Assembly: GCA_020630975.1 (NCBI GenBank)
Contig: JAHDID010000005.1
Location: 1,493 to 65,492, forward strand
DNA: 64,000 bases
Direction: 5' to 3'
Origin: Verrucomicrobiota bacterium
GTDB lineage: Bacteria > Verrucomicrobiota > Verrucomicrobiia > Verrucomicrobiales > DEV007
The position numbers were made by a program, and so were the translations under genes. Position 1 is the stretch's first letter, and every line of letters begins with the position of its first letter. Below the pieces are notes generated by a model that saw nothing but the letters and a program-made list of their open reading frames with translations, ran no database searches and was not told where the DNA came from. Shown here piece after piece: positions 41,307-46,309 of the stretch.

Positions 41307-42056
41307 CTACTCGGGGTTTGTAGCGGGTAGCGCCTCGCGCCACGGTGCTGTCTCTAGGTATTCGAGACCACGCTCCACCCAGCCCTGAGACAGAGCGAAA
41401 TAGACGATAGCAGTGATCACGGCTAGCTTGAAGACAGTTTTGATCAGCCACCAGATTGGATTGGCGCGCTTCTTTTTGGTAGCGGCCTGCAGTTTTTCCT
41501 CGGTATCGACCAGACGTTTCTCCAGCATATCGATGCGATCTGCCAGCTGTCGGTCCATACGGTAGGAGGCTTCTAGAAATTGATTGGGCTCGTCTGGCTC
41601 AGCCTCGTGGGCCGTCACGATGATTGATTCGAGTGCCTCGTAGTCGAATGGCTTCTGCAGCGCATCCACAGCAGTGAGTGGCGAGTGAGCACAGGCGCGG
41701 TCGAAGTCGTCGCGCAGGCGAGAGGTGAGAGAGCTGGTGGTCAGGATGATCTTGAGCGGGCGGCCGACCTGGTCGGCCAGATCCTGGATCAGGTCGACTC
41801 CGGAGCGGCCCTGCAGGTCGTCATCGATGATCAGCATGTCGATCGAGCTGTCTTTCTCCACTCTTACCAGAGCTTCCTCGGCGCTGCGCACAGTGGTGAC
41901 ATTTAGCATGCCGATGTATTCCGCGAGAAAGCTTTTCAGGCTGAGCTGAAATCTCGAGTCGGTGTCTACGATCAGCACGCCGACCTCCGACAGGCTGATT
42001 TCTTCGCTGTCTGCTTCTGCGGGTGATGGGGCGGGTAGGGTAGACAGTCGACTCAT
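41307..42056 (-). CDS. Response-regulator receiver domain tethered by a C-terminal helix
   Basis: A 249-residue protein: a receiver domain at about residues 26-150 (VGVLIVDTDS acidic pocket, phospho-acceptor Asp78 in LIIDDDLQGRSG, TTSS switch, QKPF lysine), then a coiled coil (IDMLEKRLVDTEEKLQAATKKK), and a single transmembrane segment near residues 205-225 (IKTVFKLAVITAIVYFALS). There is no DNA-binding or enzymatic output domain. The conserved receiver Pro after the acceptor is Gln. A receiver anchored by its C-terminus suggests local signalling at the membrane. Confidence 0.82.
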   Translation of the reverse strand: MSRLSTLPAPSPAEADSEEISLSEVGVLIVDTDSRFQLSLKSFLAEYIGMLNVTTVRSAEEALVRVEKDSSIDMLIIDDDLQGRSGVDLIQDLADQVGRPLKIILTTSSLTSRLRDDFDRACAHSPLTAVDALQKPFDYEALESIIVTAHEAEPDEPNQFLEASYRMDRQLADRIDMLEKRLVDTEEKLQAATKKKRANPIWWLIKTVFKLAVITAIVYFALSQGWVERGLEYLETAPWREALPATNPE

Positions 42057-42163
42057 GGCACCAACATTGTTGCATAAACTTCCTATCTAATGCGAGCTGA
42101 AATTTAACTATTGCCGCACATACGCCCTGCGTACTGGAGCTTGGACCCCCGCTCGAAAATCTT

Positions 42164-43282
42164 ATGAAGCCATTTCTCGTCCACACTTTGCTACTCCTCA
42201 GTCTGCCTGCGCTGTGCCTCGCAGACGTGACATCGAAGAATCTCGAAATCATCTCCGGCAAAAGCCACAGTTCCGATATCCGCACCGCTACCCAGTCGGG
42301 GACTTACATCGAGTCGATGACTATCCATCGGCCAAAGGCCAATACCTCGGCCGATGCGCTGGCCAGGGTGAATCCACACCTGCGCACGCTACTGAGGGAC
42401 TATGACAAACTCATCGATACCGCGCAGGTATCGTCGCGCTTCGAGGAGCTGTACGATCGCAAGATATCGCTGCTGAAAAGAGGCAGCTACCCCACCGAGC
42501 ACAACTACTGCGACTGCGAGACGATTCTCCGACTCGAGCACCCGACCACAGGCAAGATCGCGCTCTGGGTGCAGGGCGATATGGATGTGGTGACCGATGG
42601 TTCGGACCCCGTGCGCTCGCCGAGTATCGACGACTATGATCTGGCACGCACCTCCGACTGGTACCTGCCCGAGACCTCCTACTCCTGGAGGCTGAAGAGT
42701 GGCGACCCGAAAAACCCCTTTCTGGACTACTACCCTGGCACCAAGAAAGACCTGCAGGAAGTGCGGGCTTTCATCGAGAGAAAAGCTGAGAAAGACCCAG
42801 GCATAGTCTGGCGCGATGTCCTGAAGTCGATCGACTCACAGATCTATCGTGTCGAGCAGCGGGGGCTGAAAAGCTACACTCGAGAGGGGCTGAGCCAGCG
42901 TAGGAATCTACTCGCTACACACGATCCATTTGTAGTGCTGCCAGTCCCTTGGGTGAACAAAAGCGCCAAGTGGGGACCGCAGATCGGGGACTATGCCGCC
43001 GTCATCTACAAAGATCGCATCTACCCTGCGATCTTGGGCGATGCCGGTCCTAGTGACAAGGTGGGCGAGGCCTCGCTACGCATCGCGCGCGCTATCAATC
43101 CCGAGGCATCGGGGAAAAACCGCGCTGTCGAGGATGTCACTGTCACCTATCTTTTCTTCCCACGATCAAAGGAGAAGTATCGCTCTGCGCCTGACTACGC
43201 TTTGTGGCGCAGTCGAGTGGCATCTCTACTGGATGGTATCGGTGGCATTTCTTCGCCTGCGGCGCTGCATAGCTGGGAGTAG
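42164..43282 (+). CDS. Secreted glycoside hydrolase family 75 chitosanase-like
   Basis: A 372-residue exported protein with signal peptide MKPFLVHTLLLLSLPALCLA. GH75 enzymes cleave chitosan by an inverting mechanism. Key matches are the catalytic-site region WVQGDMDVVTDGSDPVRSPS (acidic residues and DGSD), LPVPWV, GDYAAVIYKDRIYPAI, and GDAGPSDKVGEASLRIA, the last being the family's most recognisable motif. The N-terminal ~100 residues are extra. The family call is from motif recognition. It lies 81 bp upstream of the candidate selenoprotein gene. Confidence 0.75.
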   Translation: MKPFLVHTLLLLSLPALCLADVTSKNLEIISGKSHSSDIRTATQSGTYIESMTIHRPKANTSADALARVNPHLRTLLRDYDKLIDTAQVSSRFEELYDRKISLLKRGSYPTEHNYCDCETILRLEHPTTGKIALWVQGDMDVVTDGSDPVRSPSIDDYDLARTSDWYLPETSYSWRLKSGDPKNPFLDYYPGTKKDLQEVRAFIERKAEKDPGIVWRDVLKSIDSQIYRVEQRGLKSYTREGLSQRRNLLATHDPFVVLPVPWVNKSAKWGPQIGDYAAVIYKDRIYPAILGDAGPSDKVGEASLRIARAINPEASGKNRAVEDVTVTYLFFPRSKEKYRSAPDYALWRSRVASLLDGIGGISSPAALHSWE

Positions 43283-43363
43283 GTGTGAAAGTTCGCTCCT
43301 TCAGGAAGCCCTAGTTGGTAGATTTTTGCTCGCATTTTCAGTCTAGCTAGCCATCCTACAGCC

Positions 43364-43585
43364 ATGGATATCACCATCGAATACTGAGGCATGTGAAACT
43401 ATCTGCCTCATGCCGCCAGTTTGGCGGAAGAACTGAAGGAAAATCTAGGAGTCGAGGCCACACTCATCAAAGGGACTGGCGGAATATTTGAAGTGATCGC
43501 CGATGGTGAGATGGTCTTCAAAAAGATGAAATCAGGCGACTTTCCTGAGAAAGGGCTTGTTACTGAACGGCTTAAGGCAAGATAA
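43364..43585 (+). CDS. Candidate Rdx/SelW-family selenoprotein with UxxU motif (two in-frame TGA)
   Basis: Read with TGA as selenocysteine (U), this 73-codon frame encodes MDITIEYUGMUNYLPHAA, then a LAEEL helix, GTGGIFEVIADGEMVFKKMK and SGDFPEKG, and ends at TAA 43583-43585. This is a complete thioredoxin-like Rdx/SelW/SelT-family protein: the IEYCxxCNY redox motif and the G-G-FEV-DG-VF-K-FPE tail are family hallmarks. Both motif cysteines are TGA (43385-43387, 43394-43396) and no other in-frame stop occurs. A stem-loop at 43413-43427 fits a bacterial SECIS. The ribosome-binding site is weak. Standard ORF calling misses this gene. The alternative is a pseudogene, but two stops exactly at the two redox Cys codons with an otherwise intact frame argues against it. 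Confidence 0.72.
43413..43427 (+). promoter_or_regulatory. Candidate bacterial SECIS hairpin
   Basis: CCGCC (43413-43417) pairs with GGCGG (43423-43427) around loop AGTTT; A-T closure would make a 6-bp stem with loop GTT. A G in the first two loop positions followed by U is the known requirement for SelB recognition. The loop begins 21 nt after the second TGA and 30 nt after the first, both within the 16-37 nt range described for bacterial SECIS elements. A second stem (TGAGGCA 43385-43391 with TGCCTCA 43404-43410) encloses both TGAs and could compete with it. Confidence 0.55.
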
Positions 43586-43658
43586 AAGATGACTTGTTAG
43601 TCAATTTCTCTTAGCAATTAGCCCAAATTAGACGACATTTAGCTCATCTCTAACCCAG

Positions 43659-44597
43659 ATGAGATATCTCTTCACTCTACTATCATATCTCTTTCTCTAT
43701 AACGGACCGCTCTACGCTCAGGTGAGTATCGATGCAGATAATATCGCCGAGGCTATTAGCAATGATTCAGGCTTTCCTGCATCAAATTATCGTCGTTACA
43801 GCAGAAAACTGAACAAGACGCTCAGTATGCTCTCACCTGAGCAGTTGGACCGAGTATTTACGCCTACGGATAATCCTGGGCCGATCAACTCTGCAGCGCC
43901 GAACAATCCGACGACGCCGAGCAATCCAACGACGCCAAACAACCCAACGACGCCAAACAATCCGACGACGCCGAGCAACCCAACGACGCCGAGCAACCCA
44001 ACGACGCCGAGTAACCCAACGACGCCGAGCAACCCAACGACGCCGAGTAACCCAACGACGCCGAGTAACCCAACGACGCCGAGTAACCCAACGACGCCGA
44101 GCAATCCAACGACGCCGAGCAATCCAACGACGCCGAGCAATCCAGCGGCGCCGAGCAACCCAACGACGCCGAGCAACCCAGCGGTGCCGAGCAACCCAGC
44201 GGCGCCGAGCAATCCAACGACGCCGACCAATCCAACGACGCCGACCAATCCAACGACGGCTGGTCAGCCTCCTGCTCCGTTCCCTGTCTTAGGTGCCATG
44301 CGTTTCGGCTTTGGGAGCCATATTTTACAATCGGCAACTAAAACGGAGCTTAACAAGGTCGCCGCTTATATGAAACAGAATCCTGATGTTAGGATCAGAA
44401 TCACCGGGCATGGCTCTTTAGATGTACCCAATGTTTATGAGGTGAGTTTGAACCGCGCTAGGTCGGGGAAATCATATCTCGTATCTCAGGGCATCGCTGG
44501 TAGTCGGATAGAGACGAAAAGCAAAGGGGTGCAAGACCTCATTGCTGAAATGGGAAATCCATCAAATCAGAGGATCGAAGTGACTCCGATCAATTAA
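43659..44597 (+). CDS. OmpA-like protein with a proline-rich repeat linker
   Basis: A 312-residue exported protein. Signal peptide MRYLFTLLSYLFLYNGPLYA, a ~60-residue region, then about 20 tandem hexapeptides of the type SNPTTP (residues ~82-200), then a C-terminal OmpA-like domain: KTELNKVAAYMKQNPDVRIRITGHG, SLNRARSGKSYLVSQGI and NQRIEV. The domain is of the peptidoglycan-binding superfamily, although the usual TD..G motif appears as TGHGSLD, so binding should be tested. The Pro/Thr linker would span the periplasm or cell surface. The 18-bp repeats could change length by slippage. Confidence 0.85.
   Translation: MRYLFTLLSYLFLYNGPLYAQVSIDADNIAEAISNDSGFPASNYRRYSRKLNKTLSMLSPEQLDRVFTPTDNPGPINSAAPNNPTTPSNPTTPNNPTTPNNPTTPSNPTTPSNPTTPSNPTTPSNPTTPSNPTTPSNPTTPSNPTTPSNPTTPSNPTTPSNPAAPSNPTTPSNPAVPSNPAAPSNPTTPTNPTTPTNPTTAGQPPAPFPVLGAMRFGFGSHILQSATKTELNKVAAYMKQNPDVRIRITGHGSLDVPNVYEVSLNRARSGKSYLVSQGIAGSRIETKSKGVQDLIAEMGNPSNQRIEVTPIN
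43902..44259 (+). repeat. 18-bp coding tandem repeat, about 20 units
   Basis: Units of the form AGCAATCCAACGACGCCG encode SNPTTP. Variation is mostly AAC/AAT and CCA/CCG third-base or Asn/Ser/Thr changes; a block of GCGGCG (Ala-Ala) units appears in the second half. Each unit is a multiple of three, so gain or loss keeps the frame. Its opposite strand shows open frames that are shadows. Confidence 0.9.
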
Positions 44598-44617
44598 GTG
44601 AAACCCTCGCCTTGCCT

Positions 44618-45325
44618 TTAGGCCAGAGGCTCACTGCAGATCTCCCAGTCAGCTAGGTATTGGGCGCTGCCGCCACTTTTCAGGCGGAGCACAGGGATCA
44701 TGTGGGTCGCGCCTGCTTCTTTCTCCCACTGGTAGAGCTCGCGGTGGCGTTTGGGTGGGGTCTTCTCCATGTAGAGGGCGATCAGGTCAAAGACCAGCAT
44801 CAGTGCTTCGCCCTCGGCGCGGTAGAGCCGATCCGATACCTGCCCTGGTCGGTAGCTGCGCAGTGCGGGCACGCCGTTTCGCTTGCGGGATATCTTTCGG
44901 TACTTGCCCATGCGCGCGAGATCGGCAGCATCGGCTTTGTCTTTGGTGAAAAACTCGCAGCTGGTGATGGTGATCGAGCTGGGGCGCTCTTCGCTGCTGC
45001 CAGTGGCGTGCTGCCAAAAAGGCACTGCGTATGGTGGGTGAAAGTAGTGCACCGCATACATCTCGGCACCGCGCCCTAGGATCGATATGATGCCCAGCTG
45101 CCCCGTCTCGGGATCGCGTAGGCCGATGGGGTGATTTTCGCGGACTTTCTCCCAGGGCGCTAGCTCACGGATCAGCACGGCCTGCTCGACCAGTCGGCGC
45201 TCCACAGCCGCGGGTAGTGGCTGATCACAGGTAGCCGCCGCCTGTGCCTCCGACTGCAGGGGTGCGGTCGGTAGGGAGGGGGCATGCGGTCTGGGCTCGA
45301 AGGTGAAGTCCGAAAACAGTTCCAT
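44618..45325 (-). CDS. Hypothetical cytoplasmic protein
   Basis: A 235-residue protein with no signal peptide or clear membrane segment. The N-terminal ~45 residues are low-complexity. Then VEQAVLIRELAPWEKVRENHP, LGIISILGRGAEMYAVHYFHP, and a C-terminal part with basic patches and LVFDLIALYMEKTPPKRHR. The last part ends VLRLKSGGSAQYLADWEI. It is not recognised as a known family. It stands between the convergent OmpA-like gene and a co-directional metallo-hydrolase gene. Confidence 0.6.
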   Translation of the reverse strand: MELFSDFTFEPRPHAPSLPTAPLQSEAQAAATCDQPLPAAVERRLVEQAVLIRELAPWEKVRENHPIGLRDPETGQLGIISILGRGAEMYAVHYFHPPYAVPFWQHATGSSEERPSSITITSCEFFTKDKADAADLARMGKYRKISRKRNGVPALRSYRPGQVSDRLYRAEGEALMLVFDLIALYMEKTPPKRHRELYQWEKEAGATHMIPVLRLKSGGSAQYLADWEICSEPLA

Positions 45326-45388
45326 AAGGCGCTCGCTTCATAGCGAACCCGCAGAAAAGGTCAACCTTTCTTAGAAAGATAAACGGGC

Positions 45389-46309
45389 TCACTTCACCAT
45401 CACCCGCTCGCCGACTCGTGGCGTGAGCACCGCATTTTCAGACAGAGTCGTGCTGCTAGCGACAGCCTCGCGTAGGCGCATGAGCGGCTCGTCGGCAGCC
45501 TCCATACTGATGGGAAAGGTGCCAAAGTGCATGGGGATCATCTGGCGAGCGGATAGGTCGTGGTAGGCTAGTAGAGCCTCTTCGGGATTCATGTGGGTCT
45601 CGCGGCCGCTAGGGGTATCGTAGGCCCCGATAGGCAGTAGGGCTGTATCGATCTGGCTGCGAGCACCGATCTCGGCAAAGCCATCGAAGTAAGCCGTATC
45701 TCCTGAGTGATAGAGCGTATGCCCAGCAGAGTCGATCAGGAATCCGCCAAAACCTTTCTCGTGATCGGTGATGTAGCGCGCCCCCCAGTGGTGACACGGG
45801 GTAAAGGTGATCTGCAGATCGCCGCCATCTAGCGAGACTTCCTGCCACTCCGACATTTCGCATAGAGAGGCGTGTGGGATGCCTTTGAGCACCGAGGACA
45901 CGCCTTCTGGCACGAGGATGGTTTCCTGCCCGCAGCAGATCTTGCGGAGGGTCTTCATCGAGAGGTGGTCGAAGTGCGCGTGACTGATCAGGATCACATC
46001 GATATGGGGCAGTAGGTCGATCGGTATGCCGGGGTCTTGCCTGCGTTTGATCGGGCCGATCCAGCCATCCCAGACGGGATCGATCAGGATATTGTGGGTG
46101 GCCGTCCGTATGAAGAAGCTGGCATGCCCGATCCATACGACCTCCATCTGGCCAGCAGGGATCGGCCGGTAAAAATCGGTCTCAAAATCGAAATGGGCAG
46201 GCTCTTTGCGCTGCACCATGGTCGGCAGTAGAGAGTGGCAGACGTACCGATAGTTGCGACGTGCCCAGCCTTTTTTAGGGCGCAGTCCTACACTGTGAGA
46301 GCTCGGCAT
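45389..46309 (-). CDS. MBL-fold metallo-hydrolase (UlaG/NAPE-PLD-like)
   Basis: A 306-residue metallo-beta-lactamase-fold enzyme. The metal motif is ISHAHFDHLS, with later ligands in CHHWGAR, YHSGDTAYFDGF and PMHFGTF. The N-terminal extension with WIGHASFFIRT preceding NILIDPVWD is typical of the L-ascorbate-6-phosphate lactonase / N-acyl phosphatidylethanolamine phospholipase D-like branch. The substrate cannot be assigned from sequence. No signal peptide. It is divergent from the esterase gene, whose repeat-containing start lies about 115 bp away. Confidence 0.82.
   Translation of the reverse strand: MPSSHSVGLRPKKGWARRNYRYVCHSLLPTMVQRKEPAHFDFETDFYRPIPAGQMEVVWIGHASFFIRTATHNILIDPVWDGWIGPIKRRQDPGIPIDLLPHIDVILISHAHFDHLSMKTLRKICCGQETILVPEGVSSVLKGIPHASLCEMSEWQEVSLDGGDLQITFTPCHHWGARYITDHEKGFGGFLIDSAGHTLYHSGDTAYFDGFAEIGARSQIDTALLPIGAYDTPSGRETHMNPEEALLAYHDLSARQMIPMHFGTFPISMEAADEPLMRLREAVASSTTLSENAVLTPRVGERVMVK

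Follow-up and report, generated by a model that had tools for sequence, protein, structure and literature searches.

Does a reading frame with two internal TGA codons, each at a cysteine position of a redox motif, encode a protein with two selenocysteines (Sec)? The question is raised by a gene in the window, by which we mean the whole stretch of 64,000 nucleotides analysed. The gene and its two TGA codons are located as follows.

43364–43585, plus strand: coding sequence of the Rdx/SelW family, 73 codons from ATG to TAA, with TGA as Sec twice.
43385–43387, plus strand: UGA as first Sec codon (U8), in place of the first Cys of the CxxC redox motif.
43394–43396, plus strand: UGA as second Sec codon (U11), in place of the second Cys, where the ordinary bacterial CxxU SelW has its Sec.

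We conclude, at a probability of about 0.92, that the gene encodes a two-Sec selenoprotein and that both codons are read through via one SECIS. With TGA as Sec, the conceptual product (window 43364–43585, plus strand) is MDITIEY-U-GM-U-NYLPHAASLAEELKENLGVEATLIKGTGGIFEVIADGEMVFKKMKSGDFPEKGLVTERLKAR-stop. The preliminary description of this DNA had claimed a 73-codon frame that has TGA at both redox-Cys positions (UGMU) and is stop-free to TAA, and its coordinates and codons are confirmed. It had also claimed that the gene escapes ordinary ORF calling. In accordance, the in-frame listing of ORFs of at least 50 aa gives only a TTG-started ORF of 54 aa at 43421–43585; the gene is hidden because two of its codons resemble stop signals.

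In keeping with the earlier assignment to Rdx/SelW, residues 3–71 match Pfam Rdx (PF10262) at E 8e-18 and 64.9 bits, with C in place of U and a cut-off of 22.6. The product also passes TIGR02174 (54.7 bits; cut-off 34.2) and scores 82.1 bits with NF041051, under the cut-off of 88 for that profile. Up to E 1, no Pfam domain other than Rdx is found in the window protein, including the AhpC/Prx-like domain of SelL. In a six-frame search with stops read through, this gene, with two TGAs inside, is the sole Rdx match of the host genome, a 7.14-Mb draft of 158 contigs that is 95.8% complete. Those relatives of the host that have named records are Verrucomicrobiales.

The AlphaFold model (18 rows) has a pLDDT of 92 and a pTM of 0.78, and its strands and helices follow the SelW order, in the thioredoxin-like β-α-β-β-β-α fold of Rdx/SelW. 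Strand 1 comprises residues 3–8 and helix 1 residues 14–28. UGMU (residues 8–11) is positioned between them, where the family has its CxxC/CxxU motif, so that both Sec residues are in the connecting loop. The best Foldseek matches are bacterial and SelW-related (2fa8, TM 0.92), followed by mouse SelW (2npb, 0.64) and then by thioredoxins; SelW 2npb is also among the PDB relatives found by sequence. In alignments, CxxU relatives have Cys opposite the first UGA, and CxxC relatives have Cys opposite both.

The preliminary description had named a host without selABCD as evidence against its reading, and all four genes are present. Profile searches give selA at 522.4 bits, selB at 272.6 bits (296.5 with its second in-frame piece joined), and selD at 301.1 bits. 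The tRNA-Sec gene (selC) scores 58.6 bits against a gathering score of 47 and is called tRNA-SeC with anticodon tca by ARAGORN. The host selD (L037:1387–3651, minus strand) is a fusion of 754 aa with a pyridine-nucleotide oxidoreductase domain in front and an AIRS-type SelD behind. It resembles the Ndh-SelD fusion described in PMC2398784 (papers are cited by PMC number from the accessible parts of their text).

Within the host family, 20 of the 21 genomes with Rdx have selA, versus 29 of the 53 without (Fisher p 8e-4); the count comprises 18 matches over the cut-off and two partial ones below it (G055 and G038), and leaves out a weak match in G103. No selA is found in the UxxU genome G105, which is 53% complete, nor in a named record with the same gene (L132/G737; L132 repeats L042). 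Among five named UxxU genomes, selA is over the cut-off in four, including the gammaproteobacterial and the ‘Chloroflexi’ one, and the fifth is the one that shares the gene of G105.

Genome-wide reassignment of UGA to a sense amino acid would account for in-frame TGAs that are otherwise hard to explain without Sec, but TGA ends 8 of the 29 long ORFs of the window, four UxxU genes appear to end in TGA themselves (L004, L041, L046, and L089), and tRNA-Sec, selA, selB, and selD are in place. We regard such a reassignment as barely conceivable.

The double-TGA form recurs as 17 distinct Rdx genes in 17 genomes, in records labelled as three phyla. In the 74 genomes of the host family, 21 have Rdx, with two TGAs in 12 (13 places), one TGA in nine, and zero TGA in none; the same gene on two contigs of G097 (L040 and L047) is probably one gene. 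Among 95 relatives including the host itself, Rdx is found in 19, with two TGAs in six, one TGA in 12, and a decayed copy in one. An even draw of the class gives matches in 69 of 384 genomes and two TGAs in two of them, the host (G000) and G399 from another family of the order. A draw of the phylum gives matches in 48 of 387 genomes and two TGAs in the host alone. The one-TGA places in G112, G385, and G702, from these two draws, are outside the set.

To this set we added a scan with the search pattern TAYTGANNNNNNTGAAAYTAYNNNCCNNNNGCNGNYNGKNTR, which fits 14/14 double-TGA loci and 0 of the 114 other loci then in the set. In one genome per species (84,980 species), the pattern finds 17 stretches, all of them UxxU Rdx genes: 13 repeat loci already in the set, and four are new, namely L137 (Verrucomicrobiales), L145 (Rubritalea sp.), L133 (a ‘Chloroflexi’ MAG), and L140 (a gammaproteobacterial MAG). 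The four pass Pfam Rdx at 67–74 bits. Estimated from base counts alone, well under one chance match is expected across the scan. The pattern undercounts UxxU genes, since it requires the hairpin loop and the NYxP context, and it has zero matches in viral contigs. The labels of the two MAGs are open to misbinning error; around L140, the gene order mltG-tmk-holB, read by eye, is one that we take to be gammaproteobacterial. Two of the UxxU records, with the isolate names AG-313-K16 and AG-439-D21, are presumably single-cell genomes.

Sense codons other than Cys or Sec at both sites, also named at the outset as evidence against the reading, are not what the family has: Cys or Sec is at both sites in 105 of the 106 seed-profile matches printed, and the exception, L067, had been read in the wrong frame. 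L019 and L086, with zero match to the seed profile, are dropped, and L067 and L048 (motif outside the stretch) are left untyped, so that 104 of 106 are typed; L047 and L092 are dropped as exact protein copies. Two genomes of the same order, G384 (L060 and L094) and G428 (L064 and L096), each have a CxxC Rdx of the RWLLR type and a CxxU Rdx. In the alignment of the UxxU genes, TGA/TGA is at exactly the same two columns in 17/17, and the number of all-TGA columns elsewhere is zero. This excludes chance as the source of both TGAs.

Neutral drift of the locus had been named as a further way in which the proposal could fail. Instead, the codons downstream of both TGAs are under purifying selection in the UxxU set. 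Past the second UGA, dN/dS has a median of 0.19 and a maximum of 0.56 (60 of 136 pairs with finite dS, 17 UxxU genes), and the lowest values, 0.04–0.07, are those of the pairs L002/L005 and L003/L043. Over the 12 codons that directly follow the UGA, pN is 0.14 and pS 0.58, versus 0.30 and 0.79 beyond; a reduction of both is as expected with a hairpin there. The window gene has pN below pS against 20/20 relatives (16 UxxU and 4 CxxU), a comparison that is rough owing to divergence. Its dN/dS is 0.16–0.56 against the 7 of 16 UxxU genes with finite dS, dS being saturated or large in nearly all pairs. The window protein is divergent, with 43–60% identity to the 17 others aligned, and keeps all 15 columns that are invariant in the 18 aligned proteins.

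The locus could instead be a pseudogene or a sequencing error, that is, a former CxxC or CxxU gene with acquired stops. Rdx is patchy in the genus, with 2 of 33 genomes having it; it is not seen in the other 31, many of them incomplete, and we count this against the two-Sec reading. Moreover, an Rdx-like locus in an order relative (L019 in G066) looks like a selenoprotein gene in decay, with one TGA, two TAG, and three TAA. However, the window gene has zero internal TAA or TAG, the identical two TGAs recur in all 17 genes across records labelled as three phyla, and the invariant columns, the excess of pS over pN, and a conserved covarying hairpin are all retained. A pseudogene or error is most improbable.

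How could two UGAs be read as Sec? The hairpin concerned and a second helix next to it are located as follows.

43413–43427, plus strand: shared bacterial SECIS hairpin, stem CCGCC/GGCGG, loop AGUUU at 43418–43422.
43385–43410, plus strand: extra 7-bp helix UGAGGCA/UGCCUCA, perfect, enclosing the first UGA in the predicted fold.

The preliminary description had placed the start of a hairpin 21 nt after the second TGA and 30 nt after the first. These spacings are correct as distances from the UGAs to the apical loop (43418) and incorrect for the start of the stem (43413), which is at 16 and 25 nt. The loop AGUUU starts 21 nt past the second UGA and 30 nt past the first in 17/17 UxxU genes. Most bacterial SECIS elements have a loop of 3–9 nt, a stem of 4–16 bp, and a UGA–loop distance of 16–37 nt, and the bSECIS rules also ask for a G among the first two loop nucleotides and an energy of −7.5 kcal/mol or lower (PMC13188914). 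The window hairpin conforms to these rules, with its loop AGUUU, its spacings of 21 and 30 nt, and an energy of −8.6 kcal/mol (ungapped upper-stem estimate). Both UGAs are within the published spacing, and therefore one SECIS could serve the two. By the same ungapped estimate, −7.5 kcal/mol is reached in only 3/17 UxxU and 24/49 CxxU genes; the hairpins of L137 and L145 are the weakest because of a stem mismatch.

The hairpin covaries. Removal of identical 57-nt stretches (CxxU from 54 to 49; UxxU from 14 to 13, plus the four new genes) leaves 66 distinct rows, which score 0.393 versus 0.165 ± 0.014 when shuffled (0/500), and a slid control gives at most 0.118. The UxxU rows alone score 0.416 versus 0.209 ± 0.032. 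Over the 66 rows, 86.6% of cells pair, with both sides changed in 49 cells, and RNAalifold recovers the inner four pairs unaided, each with at least one double change. Two other measures are within what shuffling yields: as many pairs with changes on both sides occur in 102/500 shuffles of all rows and in 45/500 of UxxU, and as many further pair types in 202/500 shuffles of UxxU alone. Pair 28–44 is unformed in 31/66 rows and pair 27–45 in 21/66, indicating that the conserved helix consists of the inner five pairs. Part of the covariation could come from linked amino-acid changes of the S-L, G-L, and R-V types.

The codon choice in the loop is constrained by the RNA. The UxxU genes have AGT there in 17/17, and the 49 CxxU relatives have AGT (22), GGT (13), CGT (12), or CGG (2) at the same place. 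Loop Ser is AGT in 39/39 cases versus 28/237 further downstream in the same genes; similarly, loop Gly is GGT in 13/13 versus 97/452 downstream and loop Arg is CGT in 12/14 versus 25/174. The background is that of 68 genes, copies included and the four new UxxU genes left out, and these tests overstate the effect because the sequences are related. The best hairpin is at the shared spacing, at −3 kcal/mol or lower, in 15/17 UxxU genes versus 38/680 synonymous recodings and in 41/49 CxxU genes versus 205/1960 recodings. Without the energy limit, the counts are 16/17 versus 81/680 and 43/49 versus 339/1960. The folded stretch of the window gene is also stabler than its shuffles (z −2.5).

No separate second SECIS for the first UGA is seen. 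The other 16 UxxU genes lack the partner strand of the 7-bp helix (alignment by eye), so the helix is either private to the window gene or due to chance; if real, it might modulate initiation or readthrough. Rfam gives zero matches up to E 1 in window positions 42000–45500.

The double-Sec Rdx protein claimed by the preliminary description is thus supported by the family match, the Sec machinery, TGA/TGA in 17 genomes, downstream selection, and the covarying SECIS. We propose that the ribosome would read both UGAs as Sec with SelB, tRNA-Sec, and a single hairpin inside the coding sequence, whose apical loop would have both UGAs, 30 and 21 nt away, in its working range. The product would be a 73-residue thioredoxin-fold protein of the Rdx/SelW family with a UGMU active site in the loop between strand 1 and helix 1.

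Alternatively, one UGA only might be recoded, with translation starting downstream of the first or stopping at the second and the other UGA being regulatory. The context of a UGA can regulate translation, and the TTG-started ORF from 43421 offers a downstream start. However, a product of 54 aa would miss the predicted strand 1 as well as the redox motif, all 18 aligned proteins keep the start codon seven codons ahead of the first UGA and the strand residues I5 and Y7, and the codons past the second UGA are under purifying selection. Recoding of a single UGA is therefore very unlikely, and we retain the reading in which both are Sec.

The probable source of the UxxU form is the common CxxU form, in which one base substitution at the first Cys would turn TGC or TGT into TGA. 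Such a change would need no new SECIS, because the existing one already reached the first position. The UxxU genes cluster in trees, which leave one versus several origins undecided. Trees of 69, 73, and 54 rows give four changes each, with bootstrap 5–95% ranges of 2–5, 3–5, and 3–5, and AU p values for one UxxU clade of 0.478, 0.167, and 0.154, from 74–78 columns, which are too few. The trees include two or three of the 36 typed CxxC rows; the 54-row tree has 22 of the 54 CxxU rows, hand-picked, plus 13 of 14 gammaproteobacterial CxxU genes (one copy dropped). In this tree, the gammaproteobacterial UxxU gene groups with the gammaproteobacterial CxxU genes at a support of 85/88, which favours separate origins, but not significantly. 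Among the 144 genomes around the gammaproteobacterial carrier, itself included, 38 have Rdx and only the carrier has two TGAs; nine further one-TGA places and the CxxC loci L146–L160 are left out of the gammaproteobacterial set. If UxxU arose repeatedly, each gain would take one base change, as the SECIS in the CxxU coding sequence would already cover a UGA 9 nt upstream.

The SelW-like fold, with both Sec residues in the strand 1–helix 1 loop, makes a small thiol/selenol oxidoreductase the most likely product, which would cycle between diselenol and diselenide. A diselenide may form between U8 and U11 by analogy with SelL, for which one was reportedly described in a 2007 PNAS paper, and the geometry would permit what it permits in the CxxC proteins of the family. 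Thiol redox is hinted at in one of the 17 genomes, that with L140: a gene for glutathione-disulfide reductase (NF004776, 606.7 bits) precedes the UxxU gene by 55 nt and has the same orientation. SelW was found to interact with glutathione, according to the Sargasso Sea paper (PMC1088965).

A different role for the two Sec residues would be metal or metalloid binding or selenium delivery, with no diselenide redox catalysis. In some other families, Sec may coordinate a metal, and the exact functions of the SELENOW-like operon genes are given as unknown in the 2026 review (PMC13188914). The thioredoxin-like fold, the CxxC position of the two residues, and the adjoining reductase gene in the gammaproteobacterial genome (1/17) argue against such a role, which we consider unlikely. 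It shares the two-Sec premise, and its odds are not additive with those of the other alternatives. The oxidoreductase reading can be carried further, to several independent origins of UxxU, one SECIS for two successive Sec residues, and a catalytic diselenide coupled to glutathione; this combined scenario is tentative, and we would sooner doubt than accept it as a whole.

The gene neighbourhood of the window gene starts with the following feature.

42164–43282, plus strand: upstream neighbour of 372 aa, weak match to fungal chitosanase GH75.

A same-genus genome (L139) also has, upstream of its UxxU Rdx gene, a gene that gives the same GH75-like match and has a similar start; this suggests vertical inheritance accompanied by losses. 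No general operon partner is found among the 14 loci with neighbours listed. In part of the g15/g17 genomes, dihydroxy-acid dehydratase-like genes are upstream (by eye) and an Smr-like gene downstream (profile on L129 alone). Between 43200 and 43750, a promoter scan gives a single promoter-like match, at 43659–43686 inside the next gene (0.5 expected), and a terminator scan gives three terminator-like sites versus 0.5 expected, one of them downstream at 43643–43663; neither result enters the case for the gene. The next gene (43659–44597, plus strand) encodes an OmpA-family protein; within it, an 18-bp tandem repeat in about 20 copies (43897–44258) encodes (P)NPTTPS-like repeats and is a candidate site of length variation.

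The preliminary description had known of no described UxxU Rdx protein. This does not hold for eukaryotes, since two-Sec SelW is reported from Ostreococcus lucimarinus (PMC2375036, PMC7539508) and amphioxus (PMC3473315, PMC7539508), the eukaryotic motif being given as UxxU in PMC7539508. It stands for bacteria, for which no UxxU SelW is found in the open-access literature, a scope without supplements and most subscription journals; in titles and passages of that literature, only PMC7539508 ties ‘UxxU’ to SelW, and it does so in eukaryotes. In their accessible parts, the prokaryotic catalogues of 2022 (PMC9312934) and 2026 (PMC13188914) have PF10262 as CxxU only, the latter with one Sec. CxxU SelW-like proteins are among the commonest marine selenoproteins, with 427 in GOS (PMC2398784) and 48 in the Sargasso Sea (PMC1088965). 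As far as these sources go, a bacterial UxxU SelW is new, and two-Sec SelW as such is already known from eukaryotes.

The window protein agrees with the bacterial CxxU SELENOW-like proteins (PF10262) in family, fold, gene size, position of the second Sec, and position of the hairpin, but its first redox residue is also Sec. It shares with eukaryotic two-Sec SELENOW, to go by descriptions and not sequences, the two Sec residues and the UxxU motif. However, the eukaryotic SECIS is in the 3′-UTR (PMC13188914), whereas the window SECIS is inside the coding sequence and must serve both UGAs. SelL has UxxU in a thioredoxin-like fold as well, but is listed as a Prx-like family (pfam00578, PMC9312934), and a UxxU Prx-like 2 is listed under pfam04592 (PMC2398784), whereas the window protein matches Rdx only. 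NF041115 (metal-binding/mercuric reductase-like) and the FmdB family also have two Sec residues in UxxU and are listed as other families (PMC13188914).

If the two-Sec reading is true, ORF calling with TGA as stop loses the whole gene, and the prokaryotic selenoprotein catalogues, as far as accessible, overlook that a common bacterial selenoprotein recurs with two Sec residues. The gene would be a natural test of whether one bacterial SECIS serves two UGAs spaced by 9 nt efficiently enough to be useful, as after the first Sec SelB must reload with the hairpin three codons nearer. In addition, the presence of CxxU and UxxU relatives in one bacterial family would allow diselenide to be tested versus selenenylsulfide in the same small fold.
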